Source: a virus | Length of the DNA: 20,334 bases | Virus record (IMG/VR): IMGVR_UViG_3300031857_001734 | Location: 1-20,334 of that record | Reading direction: 5' to 3' (one strand) | The notes under the pieces: generated by a model | Seen by the model: only the letters and a program-made list of their open reading frames with translations | What the model was told of the DNA's origin: nothing | Database searches by the model: none | Program-made: the position numbers and the translations under genes | In this document: positions 3,928 to 11,817 of the stretch, piece by piece | Position numbering within the stretch: position 1 is the first letter of the stretch | Layout: every line of letters begins with the position of its first letter

Positions 3928-4347
3928 ATGGCGATTGTCCAAACTCAAACCACTAGCTTTAAGGCGCAGTTGTATCAAGGTATTCATGACCTGACGACCG
4001 ACGTTATCAAGATTGCCTTGTATACGGCTAACGCTAATTTGAATGAAGACACAACTGTGTACAGTTCAACTGATGAAGTGGCCAACACGGGCACTTACGT
4101 CGCTGGTGGGGCACAGCTAACTCCCATCACAATAGGCACGTCTGGATACACAGCTTACGTGGGCTTCCCAAACATCTCGTGGACAGGCGCAATCACAGCT
4201 AGGTGTGCTTTGATTTACAACGTCACACAGGGTAACAAGTCTGTAGCCGTGTTGGATTTTGGTTCAGACAAAACTTCTACAACCACGTTCACCATTACCA
4301 TGCCAACCAACGGCCCAACCACTTCATTGATTAGGAGTTCAAATTGA
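3928..4347 (+). CDS. Putative virion surface/decoration protein (copy A)
   Basis: A 139-residue beta-rich protein starting at ATG 3928, one base after the previous stop. It opens MAIVQTQTTSFKAQLYQGIH and then has IKIALYTANANL, TYVAGGAQLT and IYNVTQGNKSVAVLDFG, and it ends in TFTITMPTNGPTTSLIR. The protein at 4556-5044 contains the same landmarks in the same order, so the two are paralogues. Size, Thr/Ala/Gly richness and position after the adaptors fit a head-decoration or tail-surface protein. From memory, similar proteins are annotated only as phage structural or hypothetical. I infer a virion location and cannot specify the site. Confidence 0.7.
   Translation: MAIVQTQTTSFKAQLYQGIHDLTTDVIKIALYTANANLNEDTTVYSSTDEVANTGTYVAGGAQLTPITIGTSGYTAYVGFPNISWTGAITARCALIYNVTQGNKSVAVLDFGSDKTSTTTFTITMPTNGPTTSLIRSSN
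4333..4337 (+). promoter_or_regulatory. Ribosome site fixing a TTG start
   Basis: AGGAG lies six bases before TTG 4344, inside the end of copy A of the surface protein. It is the main evidence that translation of the 63-residue protein starts at this TTG rather than at a later ATG. Confidence 0.7.
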
Positions 4348-4535
4348 TTGTTACGACAACCAAAGGCGACATGGACGATTCCTTGCTTGAAAAGCGAGAA
4401 GGTTCATTAGATAATGACAACGAGTCAACCACATGGGTGGAGTATTGGTTGGATGGTGAACTTGTCCACCGTTCGGTGCACGTTCAATTGAAGAAATCGG
4501 TGGGGCTGAAAGTCGAAGCCGCATCTTTCGGTTAA
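4344..4535 (+). CDS. Small acidic protein, TTG start
   Basis: A 63-residue protein whose TTG start sits in a TTGA overlap with the previous stop and has an AGGAG site at ideal spacing. The first half is acidic (TKGDMDDSLLEKREGSLDND). The second half is more ordered: TTWVEYWLDGELVHRSVHV, then a basic strand KKSVGLKVEA. The WLDGELVHRSVHV phrase recurs, from memory, in tiny proteins next to phage structural genes. It separates the two paralogous surface proteins. A chaperone or minor particle protein for them is possible. No enzyme motif is visible. Confidence 0.7.
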   Translation: MIVTTTKGDMDDSLLEKREGSLDNDNESTTWVEYWLDGELVHRSVHVQLKKSVGLKVEAASFG

Positions 4536-4555: not shown

Positions 4556-5044
4556 ATGGCAAATACTCAAGCAATGTGTACATCATTCATGGAAGAAATT
4601 CTAGAAGGCGTGCATAATTTCACGACCGGTACAGGCAACACTTTCAAAGCCGCGCTTTTTGTTGCCACTGCTAACACTTCTTCAAGTACAACTTTGTGCG
4701 CCAGCGTAACTGCTTATGCAACAACGGTTAATACAATTCCCGAAGTGTCAGGTACAAATTACGTAGCTGGGGGCGTAACAGTAACAAACGGCACATCGCC
4801 TTTGGCTACAAACACTTCTACTACGGCGGGCACTGCCTATTGGACTCCCAGTGCTAGTTTGACATACACAAACGTAACATTGACTACGGCATTTGATACT
4901 GTGTTGATTTACAACTCATCGGCTTCTAACAAGGCTGTTAGCGTTCATACCTTTGGTTCACAGACCGTGACTGCCGGTACGTTTACGCTGACAATGCCTG
5001 CTAACACAACATCTACTGCTCTGATCCGTTTGGCAACAACCTGA
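4556..5044 (+). CDS. Putative virion surface/decoration protein (copy B)
   Basis: A 162-residue paralogue of the protein at 3928-4347, with a strong ribosome site (AAAGGAG at 4542-4548) before ATG 4556. Shared landmarks are TSFMEEILEGVHNFTTG against the copy A start, KAALFVATANT, NYVAGGVTVT, VLIYNSSASNKAVSVHTFG and FTLTMPANTTSTALIR. Copy B carries an extra Thr/Ser-rich stretch in the middle (about residues 40-60). The strong ribosome site suggests higher production than its neighbours, as expected for a many-copy surface protein. Its stop at 5042-5044 lies two bases before a hairpin that masks the next gene's ribosome site. Confidence 0.75.
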   Translation: MANTQAMCTSFMEEILEGVHNFTTGTGNTFKAALFVATANTSSSTTLCASVTAYATTVNTIPEVSGTNYVAGGVTVTNGTSPLATNTSTTAGTAYWTPSASLTYTNVTLTTAFDTVLIYNSSASNKAVSVHTFGSQTVTAGTFTLTMPANTTSTALIRLATT

Positions 5045-5068: not shown

Positions 5069-6061
5069 ATGACAACCGCATGGGGCGCAGGGGCGTGGGG
5101 CAGTAATACTTGGGGAGGTCAGCAATCTGAAATCTCCGGTGTTGTTGCGTCTGGCTCTGTAGGCTCTGCGGGTGTTAGCGTTACTGTAGCCCTAACGGGG
5201 GTTTCCGCATCGGGGGCGGTTGGGACTGCAACTGTAGCCGAGCGATCTTTAGCGTTAACAGGGGTTCAAGCCTCTGGCGCGGTTGGTACGGTTGGTGTTG
5301 AGTTTGTTTATGAAGTACCCATAACAGGGGCCTCTGCTTCTGGTGCGGTTGGCTCTGTTGTTCAATCGGCATCTGTTGCACTGACGGGTGTCTCTGCTAC
5401 GGGTGAAGTTGGTACTACTGTAGTATCAACTACAGATGATGAGACGGGTGTTCTGGGTATTGGTGCAGTTGGCACAGTTGAGCCTAGTCTTTCACTTGAC
5501 TTAACAGGTGTAGAGGGCACAGGCTCTGTTGGCAGTGTTGCAGTTGGCACTATATCGGTAGCGTTGACAGGTGTTCAAGCCACAGGCGCAGTTGGTACAC
5601 AGACTCCGGATATTGCTCTGGCTTTGTCTGGTATTGCGGCAAGTGGCGATGTTGGCTCTGTTTCGGTTGGTACAGTTGCTGTTGCACTGACGGGTGTTGA
5701 GGCTACTGGTGAAGTTGGTGTTATTACACGCAAGTTTGTGCTTGATGGCCTTGAGGCCACTGGCTCGGTTGGTACTGCTAGTGCGGGTGTTACAGTTGCG
5801 CTGACTGGCGTGTCTGGCTCTGGACTAGTGGGTGATGATGTTCCTGTTAGATCGCTCGAATTGTCGGGTGTATCTGCAGCGGGCGCTGTTGGCACGGTGT
5901 CGATTGGCGCAAGGTTGATTGCTATTACAGGCAGTCAAGCAATGGGTAATGTTGGCAGTTTTGGCGTGTTTTATTGGTCGTTAATTGATGACAGCGAGAA
6001 CGCAAACTGGCAGAATATAAACAATACGCAGTCTTCGGGCTGGACGGTAATTTCTACTTAG
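5069..6061 (+). CDS. 14-unit TGVxAtGxVG repeat protein, probable virion fibre
   Basis: This 330-residue protein begins with a Trp/Gly-rich leader (MTTAWGAGAWGSNTWGG). From residue 23 to about 298 it consists of fourteen repeats of 18-22 residues with consensus (T/S)GVxA(T/S)GxVGxV followed by a variable, valine/serine-rich linker. It ends with an unrelated, aromatic tail (WSLIDDSENANWQNIN onward). The repeats have alternating small and beta-branched residues and no cysteine, which suggests a beta-solenoid or a chain of small beta units. It sits between a surface-protein pair and the tail fibre, so a fibre or decorating protein is likely. From memory, similar repeats occur in other marine and freshwater phages without known function. 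Translation appears controlled by the hairpin just upstream. Confidence 0.75.
   Translation: MTTAWGAGAWGSNTWGGQQSEISGVVASGSVGSAGVSVTVALTGVSASGAVGTATVAERSLALTGVQASGAVGTVGVEFVYEVPITGASASGAVGSVVQSASVALTGVSATGEVGTTVVSTTDDETGVLGIGAVGTVEPSLSLDLTGVEGTGSVGSVAVGTISVALTGVQATGAVGTQTPDIALALSGIAASGDVGSVSVGTVAVALTGVEATGEVGVITRKFVLDGLEATGSVGTASAGVTVALTGVSGSGLVGDDVPVRSLELSGVSAAGAVGTVSIGARLIAITGSQAMGNVGSFGVFYWSLIDDSENANWQNINNTQSSGWTVIST
5135..5963 (+). repeat. Fourteen degenerate tandem repeats of about 60 bases
   Basis: The DNA encoding the TGVxATGxVG units repeats with recognisable phrases such as ACGGGTGTT followed by GAAGTTGGT or GCGGTTGG. Copies have diverged at synonymous and linker positions, so the array is old or under selection for protein sequence, but it could still recombine to change copy number in frame. 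Confidence 0.75.
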
Positions 6062-6071
6062 GAGTCAACAA

Positions 6072-8162
6072 ATGACTACAGGCGCAACGGGACAACTAGG
6101 TTTAGCTCTTCCAGTACAGGGCGAGCTTTCCGGCACATGGGGCGATACCGTTAACAACGGTATTACGCAGTACACCAACATTGCTATTGCAGCCACACTG
6201 ACGCTGACAAATGATGGCGCGGTAACTCTGGCCAATACAACAGGCGATGCCTCGGCTTCCAACATCGTATCTAGCTTGACAGGCGCGGGTACGGTTACGG
6301 CTCAGTTCGCCATCGTGCGGGTTACGGGTACGCTGACCACAACTAAAGTTGTGACGTTTGGCTCGGCAGGTTCAGCCCCATACAGTAAGACATACGTGGT
6401 GGTCAACGCTGCAACGGGCGGGTCTGTAAGCTTCACTGCATACGGTGGATCAGGCGTCACTGTTGCTGTGGGCGAGAGTGCATACGTGTATTACAACGGC
6501 ACTAACATTGTAAAAGTTTCTTCAACCGTGGCTACTGGCGTTACATCTTTCCAAACGTCACTAAGCGGCTTAACCCCATCTACGGCTACAACAGGCGCAG
6601 TCACATTGGCTGGCACATTGGGTACATCTAGCGGTGGAACAAACTTAACATCATTCACATCAGGCGGTGTAGTTTACGCCTCAAGTTCTAGTGCATTGGC
6701 TACTGGCTCTGCGCTTACTTTTGATGGGACTAATAATCTAAAACTTCAAACAGGCGCTGGTGTTACATCAACATTAAATTTGAACAACAGTGACGGTAAC
6801 GGAACCCTGTCTCAAATAAATTTTGGGTATACCGCAGTTCCAAATCACGGAAACATAAAGTACACGGGCGATTTTGTTTTTAGCCTTAATGCAAACGCCG
6901 AACAAATGCGCCTAACCTCGACAGGTCTGGGTATTGGGACGAGTTCGCCTAGTGCAAAACTTAATGTGTATTCAACAGCAGGCGCAATTGTTGCCAAGTT
7001 TGACAGTAACCAAAGCGGTGGTGCGCAAATCGGGTTTTATGGTTCTGGAACTATTAACGGCTATGTTGGAACAAGCGGTAATTGGCTTGGCACTTCTGCA
7101 ACAGATATGGCAATTATTGCTGAAACAAGCAAATCCATTACGTTCTTTACTGGTGGCTCTGGAACAGAGCGTATGCGCCTCGACAGCGCAGGCAATCTAG
7201 GTCTTGGTGTTACACCGAGTGCTTGGGGAAACACATACAAAGCATTTCAAGCAGGAACGACAAGCGTTTTGGCGGGTGTTGCATCTCAGACAAATAACTA
7301 TGTATTACACAATTTTGTCAATTGTTACAATGACAATACAAACTGGGTATACATTGCTTCACAAGAAGCGGGACGATACGAAATAGCCCGTAATACTCAT
7401 AAGTGGTTCAATGCCCCATCAGGCACAGCAGGAAACGCTATCTCCTTTACCCAAGCAATGACGCTAGATGCGTCTGGGAATTTGGGTGTGGGCGTAACAA
7501 GCATGAACACAACGCTTCATGTTCAAGGTGCTGGAACAACCGATGGAAGCATTAAGTTTAACCAGCAATTAAACAGCACGGGCGCATATAACGCAACGCC
7601 AATGAGCGGAACAATGGTTGCGCTTAAATACAATACTGCTGGTGATTATGCGGGTATGGGTGGCTGGTCAATTGGTAAAGAAAACGCAACCGATGGTAAC
7701 TACGGAAGTTACTTTGCAATTCACACTAGGTTTAATGGCGCGGCTAATGGAGAAAAAGCCAGAGTTTCTTCTGATGGCGGTTTCTCAGTAGGCACAACAG
7801 CAAACCCCGGGGCTGGTGCAATCTATGCAACAGGCAACATCACTGCGTACTACTCTTCCGACATCAAGTTCAAAGAAAACGTGCGTGACATTCCTGATGC
7901 TTTGGCTACAGTGAACGCTATTGGTGGTAAGTTGTTTGATTGGAAAGACGACTACATTGAGTCCAAGGGCGGTGCTGATGGCTACTTTGTACAGAAAGCT
8001 GACTTCGGTGTGGTTGCCCAAGATGTACAGAAAGTATTCCCAATCGCTGTGCGTACCCGTGAAGATGGCTCATTGGCTGTTGACTACGAGAAACTTGGCG
8101 CACTGGCATTTGCCGCATTGGTTGAGTTGACTAAACGTGTAGAGGCATTGGAGTCCAAATAA
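6072..8162 (+). CDS. Tail fibre with C-terminal S74 autoprotease chaperone
   Basis: A 696-residue tail fibre or spike. It starts at ATG 6072 with an AGGAG site at 6060-6064. The N-terminal 55 residues (QGELSGTWGDTVNNGITQYTN) are a common phage fibre opening, probably for virion attachment. The middle is Gly/Ser/Thr-rich beta sequence with repeated fibre phrases such as MRLTSTGLGIGTSSPSAKLNV and MTLDASGNLGVGV. Residues about 595-696 are a peptidase S74 intramolecular chaperone: SDIKFKENV supplies S596 and K601, spaced five apart as in the Ser-Lys dyad of endosialidase chaperones. FGVVAQDVQKVFP and a terminal helix (LVELTKRVEALESK) follow. This domain should drive trimerisation and then cut itself off just before S596. 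The stop overlaps the next ATG (TAATG). Confidence 0.88.
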   Translation: MTTGATGQLGLALPVQGELSGTWGDTVNNGITQYTNIAIAATLTLTNDGAVTLANTTGDASASNIVSSLTGAGTVTAQFAIVRVTGTLTTTKVVTFGSAGSAPYSKTYVVVNAATGGSVSFTAYGGSGVTVAVGESAYVYYNGTNIVKVSSTVATGVTSFQTSLSGLTPSTATTGAVTLAGTLGTSSGGTNLTSFTSGGVVYASSSSALATGSALTFDGTNNLKLQTGAGVTSTLNLNNSDGNGTLSQINFGYTAVPNHGNIKYTGDFVFSLNANAEQMRLTSTGLGIGTSSPSAKLNVYSTAGAIVAKFDSNQSGGAQIGFYGSGTINGYVGTSGNWLGTSATDMAIIAETSKSITFFTGGSGTERMRLDSAGNLGLGVTPSAWGNTYKAFQAGTTSVLAGVASQTNNYVLHNFVNCYNDNTNWVYIASQEAGRYEIARNTHKWFNAPSGTAGNAISFTQAMTLDASGNLGVGVTSMNTTLHVQGAGTTDGSIKFNQQLNSTGAYNATPMSGTMVALKYNTAGDYAGMGGWSIGKENATDGNYGSYFAIHTRFNGAANGEKARVSSDGGFSVGTTANPGAGAIYATGNITAYYSSDIKFKENVRDIPDALATVNAIGGKLFDWKDDYIESKGGADGYFVQKADFGVVAQDVQKVFPIAVRTREDGSLAVDYEKLGALAFAALVELTKRVEALESK

Positions 8163-10267
8163 TGACAATCCCATCATCTGGCCCAGTTACATTCACAGAC
8201 ATCCAAACTGAGTTTGGTGGCACGAACCCGATTGCGTTGAATGAATACTACGCAGGTGGTGGCTTGGTTCCTGCGGGTACGACAGGCACGTATGGTGCTG
8301 TGCCAAGTAGCGGTCAGATCAGTGTTCAGAACTTCTACGGCACAACGGCTTACACGCCTATCTATGTTGAAGAAGTGTTTTCATCGTGGCTTTACGCAGG
8401 CAACGGCTCTACACAGGCTATCCCCAACGGTATTGACTTAGCCACTAAAGGTGGGTTGGTTTATTTTGGAAGACGATTGACAGGGGATAACCACTGGTTG
8501 ATTGACACCGCGAGAGGCGGAACAAAGTTTTTAACCTCTAACACAACTGGCGCACAAGCTGGGGCTGATAATTACATTTCCAGCTTTAACTCTAACGGCT
8601 TTACTCTTGGGACAGGGAGTGGAGAGACAAATAGTAGTTTTTCATCAGGGGGCGCATACGTTGCATGGACATTCCGCAAGCAACCAAAGTTCTTTGATAT
8701 TGTGACTTATACGGGGAATGGCGTAAGTGGAAGATCCGTTAGCCATAATCTTGGAAGCACCCCCGGGTGCATCATCATTAAAAGCACAACAAGAACTTCT
8801 GATTGGGTTGTCTATCACCGAAGTGTTGGGTCATCGGCAACTTTGATTCTAAACAGTACCGTAGCATCTGCTGACTACGGCAATAACATTTCCAGCGTTA
8901 CATCAACATCTTTTAGCGTTACGGGTGGCTCTGACAGCAATGCCAACGGCGACACTTATGTGGCCTACATTTACGCCCACAACGCAGGAGGCTTTGGCCC
9001 CACTGGTTCTGACAATGTAATTACTTGTGGCTCATTTACCACGGTTAACGTCGGTGGGAATTCTACTGGCTTAGTAACAGATTTAGGGTACGAGCCACAA
9101 TGGTTGTTGTACAAAAGATCTTCTGGTGGTGCGGCAGATTGGTCTATAGTAGATGTTAATCGTGGCTTTTGCCAACTAGAAAACCTTGTACTTGCTCCAA
9201 ACACTACTGCCGCAGAATCCAATGCCGCAGGAGGTAATTCTCAATTCCCTTCGCCAACTGGGTTTCAGCTTAATGTAGGTTCGGTTGGTAATACGTTCAT
9301 CTATATTGCAATTCGCCGTGCTCCAATGAAAGTGCCAACTGTAGGCACTAGCGTGTTTGCGCCTTTGGTGACTGCGGCTAGTGACGCTACTATTGGCACA
9401 ACCAATTTCCCAATTGATTTGCAAATTGGTGGATATCGCGCTTCAACCAATTCCACCAACAACTGGAATATGTTTACCCGGCGAATAAAAGTTTCTACCA
9501 CAAGCGATAATTCTGGTGCTGGGTTACGAACAAGCGGCACTGACGCTGAAAATACAGGACTCACTTATCCAATAAGATACAACAATACGGGTTACCAGAA
9601 CTATGGTAGTCGCACATGGTCACTTAATTTCAGCCGAGCGCCTCAGTTTTTTGAGGTTGTTTGTTATACAGGCACAGGAGTTACAAGGACTGTAAGTCAT
9701 AACTTAGGAGTTGCACCTGAGTTGATAATTATTAAAAGCAGAAGCAACAGTGGAGTTAATTATGCATGGCCTGTCTATGCCGCCCCAAGGGGGGCTACAC
9801 AGGGGGCTTATCTTAATTCTAGTGACGAATTTGCCGTAGGTTATGGAACTCCTTTTTGGAATGACACAGCACCAACAGCATCTGTTTTTACTTTAGGAAC
9901 TACTCAACAGTTAAATGGAAGTGGCTCAACCTATGTCGCCTACCTATTTGCAACTTGCGCTGGTGTTTCCAAAGTAGGCTCATACACAGGCACAGGCACT
10001 ACAAAACAAATTGATTGTGGCTTTACAGCAGGGGCAAGGTTTGTTTTAATCAAGCGTACTGACTCTACTGGTGCTTGGTATGTATGGGATACTGCCCGTG
10101 GGATTATTGCAGGCAATGACCCTTATTTGCTCTTAAACAGCACAGCCGCTGAAGTTACCAACACAGATTACATTGACACCTACAGCGCAGGGTTTGAGAT
10201 TAGTTCAACTGCGCCATCTGCCATCAATGCAAATGGTGGCTCATTTATCTTCTTGGCTATCGCATAA
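8162..10267 (+). CDS. Large DUF7483-like repeat protein, likely receptor binding
   Basis: A 701-residue protein starting in a TAATG overlap with the S74 fibre. Residues 1-61 are a small N-terminal module ending SSGQISVQNFYGTT, seen from memory at the start of many phage tail proteins. The rest is about six divergent copies of a roughly 100-residue beta unit. Each has a strand such as FFDIVTYTGNGV, then VSHNLGSTPGCIIIK, a tryptophan motif (DWVVYHR, DWSIVDVNRG, AWYVWDTARG), LNST, and a closing strand YVAYIYAH, FIYIAIRR or FIFLAIA. These match DUF7483-type phage domains as I recall them. Position between the fibre and the assembly chaperone supports a host-binding tail protein. No S74 or lyase motif is visible. 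Confidence 0.78.
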   Translation: MTIPSSGPVTFTDIQTEFGGTNPIALNEYYAGGGLVPAGTTGTYGAVPSSGQISVQNFYGTTAYTPIYVEEVFSSWLYAGNGSTQAIPNGIDLATKGGLVYFGRRLTGDNHWLIDTARGGTKFLTSNTTGAQAGADNYISSFNSNGFTLGTGSGETNSSFSSGGAYVAWTFRKQPKFFDIVTYTGNGVSGRSVSHNLGSTPGCIIIKSTTRTSDWVVYHRSVGSSATLILNSTVASADYGNNISSVTSTSFSVTGGSDSNANGDTYVAYIYAHNAGGFGPTGSDNVITCGSFTTVNVGGNSTGLVTDLGYEPQWLLYKRSSGGAADWSIVDVNRGFCQLENLVLAPNTTAAESNAAGGNSQFPSPTGFQLNVGSVGNTFIYIAIRRAPMKVPTVGTSVFAPLVTAASDATIGTTNFPIDLQIGGYRASTNSTNNWNMFTRRIKVSTTSDNSGAGLRTSGTDAENTGLTYPIRYNNTGYQNYGSRTWSLNFSRAPQFFEVVCYTGTGVTRTVSHNLGVAPELIIIKSRSNSGVNYAWPVYAAPRGATQGAYLNSSDEFAVGYGTPFWNDTAPTASVFTLGTTQQLNGSGSTYVAYLFATCAGVSKVGSYTGTGTTKQIDCGFTAGARFVLIKRTDSTGAWYVWDTARGIIAGNDPYLLLNSTAAEVTNTDYIDTYSAGFEISSTAPSAINANGGSFIFLAIA

Positions 10268-10276
10268 GGAATCATC

Positions 10277-10789
10277 ATGGAAATCAGAGTTAGATCAACA
10301 GGCGCAGTAATGTTTTGGAACGAGTTCCGTGAGCTATTGCTTACCCAAAACCCCTCCGAGTTAATTACAGTCGCGCCCCAAACCGAAGAATGGTTAGACG
10401 CACATGGCGCAGATGTTGTGCTTGAAGGGCCACAAGCCACAGGCGGTACGGTATACCAATACTCAATGCGCCAAGGCGTGGAGCAGTTAGACGGCAAGTG
10501 GTACACAAAGTACGTGCTTGGCCCTATCTTCACAGACCGCGAAGCCACAGAAACCGAGCCAGCCCAAACAGCCGCTGAACAAGAGACTGCATACAAGGCA
10601 ATGAAAGACGCAGAGCAAGCCGCAAACGTACGCAGATCACGTACTGAAATGCTCAAAGACTGCGACTGGACACAGATTGCCGACAGCACCGCAGATAAAA
10701 CTGCATGGGCAACATACCGCCAAGCTTTGCGTGATGTACCTGCGCAGACTGGATTCCCTTGGACAATCACTTGGCCTACACAACCTTAA
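10277..10789 (+). CDS. Tail-fibre assembly chaperone (Phage_tail_APC type)
   Basis: A 170-residue protein, ATG 10277, with an AAGGA site before it. The C-terminal 52 residues carry the diagnostic order RTEMLKDCDWTQIADS, then WATYRQALRDVP and TGFPWTITWPTQP, which is the hallmark of phage tail assembly chaperones of the PF16778 kind. The N-terminal part (EIRVRSTGAVMFWNEFRELL, then DGKWYTKYVLGPIFTD) is probably fibre-specific. A charged Ala/Glu linker joins the halves. Chaperones of this type act in the host cytoplasm to fold or attach fibre proteins and are normally next to their clients, here the two large proteins upstream. Confidence 0.85.
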   Translation: MEIRVRSTGAVMFWNEFRELLLTQNPSELITVAPQTEEWLDAHGADVVLEGPQATGGTVYQYSMRQGVEQLDGKWYTKYVLGPIFTDREATETEPAQTAAEQETAYKAMKDAEQAANVRRSRTEMLKDCDWTQIADSTADKTAWATYRQALRDVPAQTGFPWTITWPTQP

Positions 10790-10798
10790 AGGACTAAC

Positions 10799-11116
10799 AT
10801 GACTACGATTACTTGGACAGTTACAGCAATGGACTGCTACACGCAAGAAGGCGGCAACAACAATGTCGTCTTCACGGTGCACTGGACTTGCGCTGGTGTT
10901 TTTGCTGACACGTACGGCAGTGTGTACTCGACCTGCTCAGTGCCTGCGCCATCTGGCTCTTTTACACCCTACGCCAATCTGACTCAAGACCAAGTTCTTG
11001 GCTGGATTTATGCCAATGGTGTTGATAAAGCGGCAACTGAAGCGGCTGTTGAGCAACAGATTCAACAACAAATTGCGCCAACTGTGCAGACCCCACCACT
11101 GCCTTGGAGCGCCTGA
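10799..11116 (+). CDS. Small DUF7936-like protein of the tail-fibre region
   Basis: A 105-residue protein preceded by AAAGGA. It begins MTTITWTVTAMDCYTQEGG, continues with VVFTVHWTCAG and YGSVYSTCSVP, and ends with TPYANLTQDQVLGWIYANG, a glutamine-rich helix and PPLPWSA. From memory this is the pattern of DUF7936 proteins, which follow tail-fibre genes in many proteobacterial phages. Three cysteines (C13, C31, C46) are present. It may be a minor tail protein or a fibre cofactor; the function is unknown. The stop overlaps the next start (TGATG). Confidence 0.78.
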   Translation: MTTITWTVTAMDCYTQEGGNNNVVFTVHWTCAGVFADTYGSVYSTCSVPAPSGSFTPYANLTQDQVLGWIYANGVDKAATEAAVEQQIQQQIAPTVQTPPLPWSA

Positions 11117-11268
11117 TGGAAATTAACTTGAAGCTTTCTTTGGAAGAAGTATCTGCCATATTGCAAGTGCTTGGCGACCTGCCAACTAAGAGCAACGCAT
11201 ACCCCCTCTTGATGAACATCAAGGGTCAGGCAGAAGCACAACTTCCAAAAGAGCCTGCACCGGAGTAA
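11116..11268 (+). CDS. 50-residue helical mini-protein
   Basis: It starts in the TGATG overlap at 11116 and ends at TAA 11266-11268. The product is MEINLKLSLEEVSAILQVLG, then DLPTKSNAYPLLMNIKGQ, ending in QLPKEPAPE. It is a short soluble helical hairpin with a proline-rich tail. From memory, similar LGxLPxxxxxxLxxxI proteins are found beside fibre chaperones and lysis genes in many phages. No function is assigned. It is accepted as a gene because of its exact overlap, the family-like sequence and the absence of any competing frame. Confidence 0.7.
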   Translation: MEINLKLSLEEVSAILQVLGDLPTKSNAYPLLMNIKGQAEAQLPKEPAPE

Positions 11269-11270
11269 CC

Positions 11271-11363
11271 ATGCGGGACTGGGCTGAAGCGTTTATCGTT
11301 GCGGCCTTTGTGACTATTTTTATAGTCTGGGGAACGTTTACCCTTGTGTGGATTTGGGGATGA
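11271..11363 (+). CDS. 30-residue single-span membrane peptide
   Basis: ATG 11271 to TGA 11361-11363, with a GGAG-type site at 11262-11265 inside the previous gene's end. The peptide begins MRDWAEAF, then has one strongly hydrophobic span (IVAAFVTIFIVWGTFTLVW) and ends IWG. The acidic/aromatic head and single span resemble very small phage holins, antiholins or pinholin-like peptides. It opens the run of membrane proteins that leads to the endolysin. This is the shortest gene called here; coding potential rests on its composition and tight packing. Confidence 0.55.
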   Translation: MRDWAEAFIVAAFVTIFIVWGTFTLVWIWG

Positions 11364-11364
11364 A

Positions 11365-11817
11365 ATGATTGACATTACCAAAGCGATTGGAGCCGTTGCC
11401 GCTACCGTTGCCGCTTTAGGCGGTAGTTACACGCTTGCCGATAAGTTTGGTTGGTTTGACCGCGCAATCATTGAATGGTCGCCTGAGAACTTTAAGATTG
11501 TGGCAGAAGCTGGTAAGCCAATAAATGTGACCGTTGCGCGGATCAAGAAGCGGGACGATTGTTCTGTTGAGAGTTTCACGCCAAGCATTCGTGATGCGGC
11601 TGGTATGGTGCATGAGGCAACCACTACCGCAAGTAAGTTCAGTGGCCCAGCCGGGCCAGAGATTGACACATTTACCTATGAACTTACGATGGTTGGCAAG
11701 GAAAAGGTTACCAGCGGCAAAGCCACTTTGCTGGCGACGATCAAGTACAAGTGTCCTGAAGGGGAGCGCGTTGTACAGTACCCTCGTCATGCAAATTTAA
11801 GTTTTGAATTGAAATGA
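11365..11817 (+). CDS. Membrane-anchored protein of the lysis region, unknown
   Basis: A 150-residue protein. I place the start at ATG 11365, one base after the previous stop, rather than at the upstream GTG 11344 that would overlap the 30-residue gene. Residues 6-24 (KAIGAVAATVAALGGSYTL) are a weak membrane span or signal anchor, with the rest probably outside the cytoplasm. The remainder is mixed alpha/beta with two cysteines (DDCSVESF and KYKCPEGE) that could form a disulfide in the periplasm. Phrases such as EWSPENFKI and TTASKFSGPAGPEIDTF look family-conserved. An inner-membrane spanin-like role is conceivable from position and topology, but no long coiled coil or partner lipoprotein is evident. 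Confidence 0.65.
   Translation: MIDITKAIGAVAATVAALGGSYTLADKFGWFDRAIIEWSPENFKIVAEAGKPINVTVARIKKRDDCSVESFTPSIRDAAGMVHEATTTASKFSGPAGPEIDTFTYELTMVGKEKVTSGKATLLATIKYKCPEGERVVQYPRHANLSFELK

Follow-up and report, generated by a model that had tools for sequence, protein, structure and literature searches.

The gene at 5069..6061 (plus strand) of the viral DNA analyzed here, a 20,334-nt stretch that we call the window, raises the question of what a phage would build from a complete 330-aa protein of short glycine-rich repeats, and how the length of such a protein evolves. The repeat array in this protein is real: the protein contains the motif.G.{4}G.VG 14 times, whereas 5000 shuffled versions of it averaged 0.29 occurrences and never exceeded 4. 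A motif search placed the core glycines of the 14 units at residues 24, 44, 65, 87, 107, 127, 147, 168, 188, 209, 227, 247, 267 and 288, with successive spacings of 20, 21, 22, 20, 20, 20, 21, 20, 21, 18, 20, 20 and 21 residues. The array (5120..5962, plus strand; consensus xVALTGVxAxGxVGxVxV) thus showed the fourteen units and the 18–22-residue unit length of the original prediction, which had been made from the letters alone; the predicted start at 5135 is where unit 1 begins, and the predicted end at 5963 falls just past unit 14. The predicted motif TGVxATGxVG was retained in part, with G1, G6, V8 and G9 (the core G-x4-G-x-V-G) invariant across the window units and its first “T”, its “A” and its second “T” merely common. 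The mean DNA identity of 58% between unit cores, which makes present-day slippage in the window array unlikely, and the absence of any array reported at the repeat gene by Tandem Repeats Finder run on the window DNA, indicated that the array is old.

We then asked whether unit number is fixed, as the array had been proposed to change protein length with copy number. A scan of viral contigs gave 52 loci, a second scan with alignment gave 561 matches of which 80 were kept, and one extra locus was taken from a bacterial MAG contig, resulting in a set of 91 distinct proteins located nearly all on viral contigs; one relative, L136 (CAIRTT010000055.1), comes from a contig that was assigned to an Armatimonadetes MAG. 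Placement of the units by a profile and dynamic programming revealed 8 to 56 units per protein, from a short complete relative of 225 aa with 8 units (L044) to a 1206-aa relative with 56 units (L096, 898-4515), the latter carrying recent tandem duplications of 60 nt and 183 nt. Indels between close relatives measured 20–23, 39–43, 58–62, 81 and 103 residues, with one at 19, and these larger indels are whole units; the smaller ones measured 10–12 residues, approximately one repeat of the tail described below, and 1–3 residues. Copy number therefore changes protein length as proposed, and it is not fixed across the relatives. Since three other contigs encoding the same protein as the window likewise carried 14 units, each lineage seems to keep a constant unit number, with differences arising between lineages.

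The repeat gene is under purifying selection (dN/dS of 0.17–0.22 against close relatives). Its synonymous divergence from L006 and L007 was 0.48–0.61, lower than that of the adjoining phrog_644 gene (0.88–1.08) and of the start of the fiber gene (1.8–2.0), suggesting that the repeat gene may have been exchanged between lineages. The L012 contig was 99.3% identical to the window from position 5634 onward (L012:4052-9923, corresponding to window 5634-11505); before this junction, identity was about 77–86% in the aligned stretches and the upstream half of L012 resembled L011. This junction inside the array arose by either recombination or chimeric assembly.

The lengths of the units are quantised. 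Among 1240 intervals in the relatives, which share descent and do not represent independent events, spacings of 16 (5), 18 (74), 20 (769, the mode), 21 (314) and 22 (78) residues were found, and none of 17, 19 or 23, although the placement method permitted them. Each main length class had its own linker, GTVxFNFQATG for 18, GSVxVGERxVALTG for 21 and GTVTAEVVYEVAITG for 22 residues, the 20-residue class being mixed, with 65, 636, 233 and 67 distinct linkers in the 18, 20, 21 and 22 classes, respectively. In the 18 class, the alternation of hydrophobic residues held a single phase between V11 and the following L-1, which was less clear in the 20 and 22 classes, and in the 21 class a G-x-R turn takes up the odd residue. 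From these sequence patterns, coil length appears to be constrained by strand register.

Near-constant tandem units with a short-strand pattern in each unit, such as we found here (x-V-A-L-T-G-V-x-A-x-G-x-V-G-x-V-x-V), are a mark of β-solenoids, the fold originally predicted for the array. AlphaFold2 modeled the full-length window protein at a pLDDT of only 33. Five 7-unit models were built for an L096 fragment from its alignment with 102 further natural fragments; one reached a pLDDT of 62 (pTM 0.49) and four were at 41–47. The best was regular β-structure, its strand pattern varying little from unit to unit. It superimposed on the BFVD model of an uncharacterized phage protein (A0A6J5Q8S2) with a TM-score of 0.87, an rmsd of 1.9 and 42% identity, an agreement that is not fully independent because the two sequences are homologous. 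The low full-length score and the composition of the protein (58 G, 55 V, 42 A and 42 S of 330 residues) are what one would expect if the array were a flexible elastin-like linker without a fixed fold that joins two functional ends. We consider such a linker improbable, because quantised unit lengths, invariant glycines and hydrophobic alternation would be unexpected in it, as would whole-unit indels and a content of just four prolines, and because the linker signatures specific to each length class argue against disorder. An ordered β-structure of the array is therefore likely, on the sequence pattern and the moderate-confidence fragment model.

The solenoid form of that structure is the leading candidate on the models, and this part of the prediction stays putative. 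The PDB fold neighbors of the 7-unit model were mostly solenoids, headed by DUF3494 ice-binding proteins and left-handed β-helix acyltransferases, which would share with the array stacked coils of several short strands each, but none was significant (best E 0.49, TM 0.30), and neither a sequence match to β-solenoids nor a Pfam solenoid family was found. In particular, there was no Pfam match to a pentapeptide or hexapeptide left-handed β-helix family at E≤1, and the unit consensus had no A(N/D)LxX or [LIV]Gx4 periodicity. The lone PDB sequence match, to a stretch of IgA1 protease, was judged compositional. An intertwined trimeric β-structure, either a triple β-helix or a prism, whose length would still scale with the number of units, is a less likely form of the array than a single-chain solenoid, and we regard it as rather doubtful. 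A poor full-chain monomer model would be expected of an obligate trimer, the skipped spacings of 17, 19 and 23 would suit strands that keep register with those of partner chains, and trimeric β-structure is common in phage tail fibers, at whose locus the gene resides; against the trimer, the monomeric fragment already yields a regular model, and its weak fold neighbors are mostly single-chain solenoids.

The array is flanked by two caps, both anticipated as a Trp/Gly leader and an aromatic tail and both found in the window protein (leader MTTAWGAGAWGSNTWGG, tail YWSLIDDSENANWQNI). The leader cap, of the Trp-Gly type, occupies 5069..5125 (MTTAWGAGAWGSNTWGGQQ) and the aromatic tail 5963..6058 (FGVFYWSLIDDSENANWQNINNTQSSGWTVIST), both on the plus strand. 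The tail itself forms a second repeat: each has 2 to 6 Trp, and 202 of the 203 Trp-to-Trp intervals among the relatives span 11 residues. Leaders of the relatives were of the WG or MFG type, MFGIAPFAGAPFSSLAG replacing the WG-type leader in about a quarter of them. Three relatives carried an unrelated array between an MFG leader and the Trp tail (L053, 3271-3813; L054, 5593-6201; L181, 2087-3052), with the repeat ExVxxxDxVxxQxDFV or VNETETLTEAQDVLAxF and a period of 20 (z 9–16). The array is thus exchangeable for another 20-residue repeat between the same caps.

The genomic position of the gene is in the tail module, as expected for a tail fiber or another virion component. The locus is anchored in this module by a SU10-type head-tail adaptor (PF24175; 3261..3926, plus strand), followed by a first phrog_644 gene (3928..4347, plus strand), a conserved 63-aa ORF (4344-4535) and a second phrog_644 gene (4556..5044, plus strand), which in nearly all relatives immediately precedes the repeat gene. 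The order adaptor, phrog_644, 63-aa ORF, phrog_644, repeat gene was found in nearly all relatives, often with an S74-type fiber next; two phrog_644 genes adjoin in the window, and the phage records examined show one at this place. Immediately downstream of the repeat gene, the window encodes a tail fiber with a C-terminal S74 chaperone (6072..8162, plus strand) and then a DUF7483 fiber-type protein (8162..10267, plus strand), which matched DUF7483 over two stretches (E 1e-86) and whose PHROG matches are labeled virion structural protein or tail fiber protein. We rejected a tape-measure role, given the β-rich array and a locus resembling that of a short-tailed phage (SU10-type adaptor, phrog_3287).

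The weak fold neighbors also included the CsgA and FapC amyloids, which together with the ice-binding proteins would fit a secreted protein or one freed by lysis, such as an amyloid-like or surface-coating fiber, rather than a component of the particle. This is very improbable: the fold matches on which it draws are insignificant (E of at least 0.49), the leader has no signal peptide apparent by eye, and the gene keeps its place between the adaptor and phrog_644 genes and the fiber genes in nearly all relatives. Taken together, these results give good support to the view that the tail module encodes an ordered repeat protein whose length varies.

In line with the claim that similar repeats are known only as hypothetical proteins, no named family for the repeat protein was found in Pfam or PHROG, and the homologues are annotated as hypothetical. 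A tblastn search of the repeat protein against phage records gave no match; a profile search, unlike low-complexity-filtered BLAST, found homologues in named phages. Such BLAST misses the family, which may help explain why it stayed unnamed. Like the window, DSL-LC04 (WJZ48131.1), the Pelagibacter phages HTVC027P (gp68) and HTVC023P (gp68) and the Roseobacter phages CRP-345 (gp55) and CRP-902 (gp53) carry a Gly-repeat array in an unnamed, hypothetical protein, mostly with a WG, YG or FGI..AP..SL-like motif and in some cases with a Trp tail. The DSL-LC04 terminase groups with those of Pelagibacter phages (PMC10611076). Several of these homologues adjoin phrog_644 and a fiber gene, and the window neighborhood recurs in DSL-LC04 and HTVC027P. 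The arrays of HTVC023P, CRP-345 and CRP-902 are related to that of the window; the period is 22 in DSL-LC04 and HTVC023P, unlike the window array. In CRP-902 gp53 (L138:2934-3860), a phrog_28581 domain is fused to a TGVAGTGAVG array whose WG motifs lie C-terminally, and a Cys-rich 129-aa protein at 2496-2885 of the window is related to that domain (E 7e-10). The profile search gave no match in Syn9, S-PM2, P-SSM2, HTVC008M, P-SSP7, HTVC010P or CRP-603, and a weak match to HMO-2011 gp28 (E 5.8e-4) was rejected because its translation contained no array. In a literature search, no virion proteomics for the homologues was found. The tandem BACON repeats of crAss-like phages (PMC6949934) are likewise a phage tandem repeat seen as a hotspot of evolution, but BACON is a whole domain of a known family, whereas the window repeats are 20-residue coils without a family.

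The most likely, though unproven, reading of the locus is a predicted solenoid shaft in the virion: we give a probability of roughly 0.6 to the array being a β-solenoid-like shaft of a tail-associated fiber, with interchangeable arrays between conserved caps, its fold and its virion location being inferred. As a structural component of the tail module, each of the 14 units would form one coil of ~20 residues with three short β-strand segments (T10-V13, x17-L20 and V2-V8), the glycines would make the turns that separate them, and the coils would stack into a rigid solenoid-like shaft. The leader and the Trp tail would be its two ends, one anchored on the particle beside the adaptor and fibers and the other making contact with a partner protein or the cell surface; receptor contact by one end is a conjecture. 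The shaft would lengthen or shorten as whole coils are added or deleted and as the array recombines internally, and another 20-residue repeat could take the place of the entire array.

More broadly, and tentatively, the family may represent a widespread fiber system of aquatic phages, in which register-quantised coils are gained or lost whole and entire arrays, unrelated in sequence but alike in period, are exchanged within one set of conserved caps, which would let reach be tuned independently of binding by the ends. β-Solenoids generally rise by about 0.48 nm per stacked coil. If the solenoid shaft is correct, fiber length would be readable from the sequence, with 14 units giving ~7 nm and 56 units ~27 nm, and the effect of shaft length on adsorption would be directly testable with natural variants.
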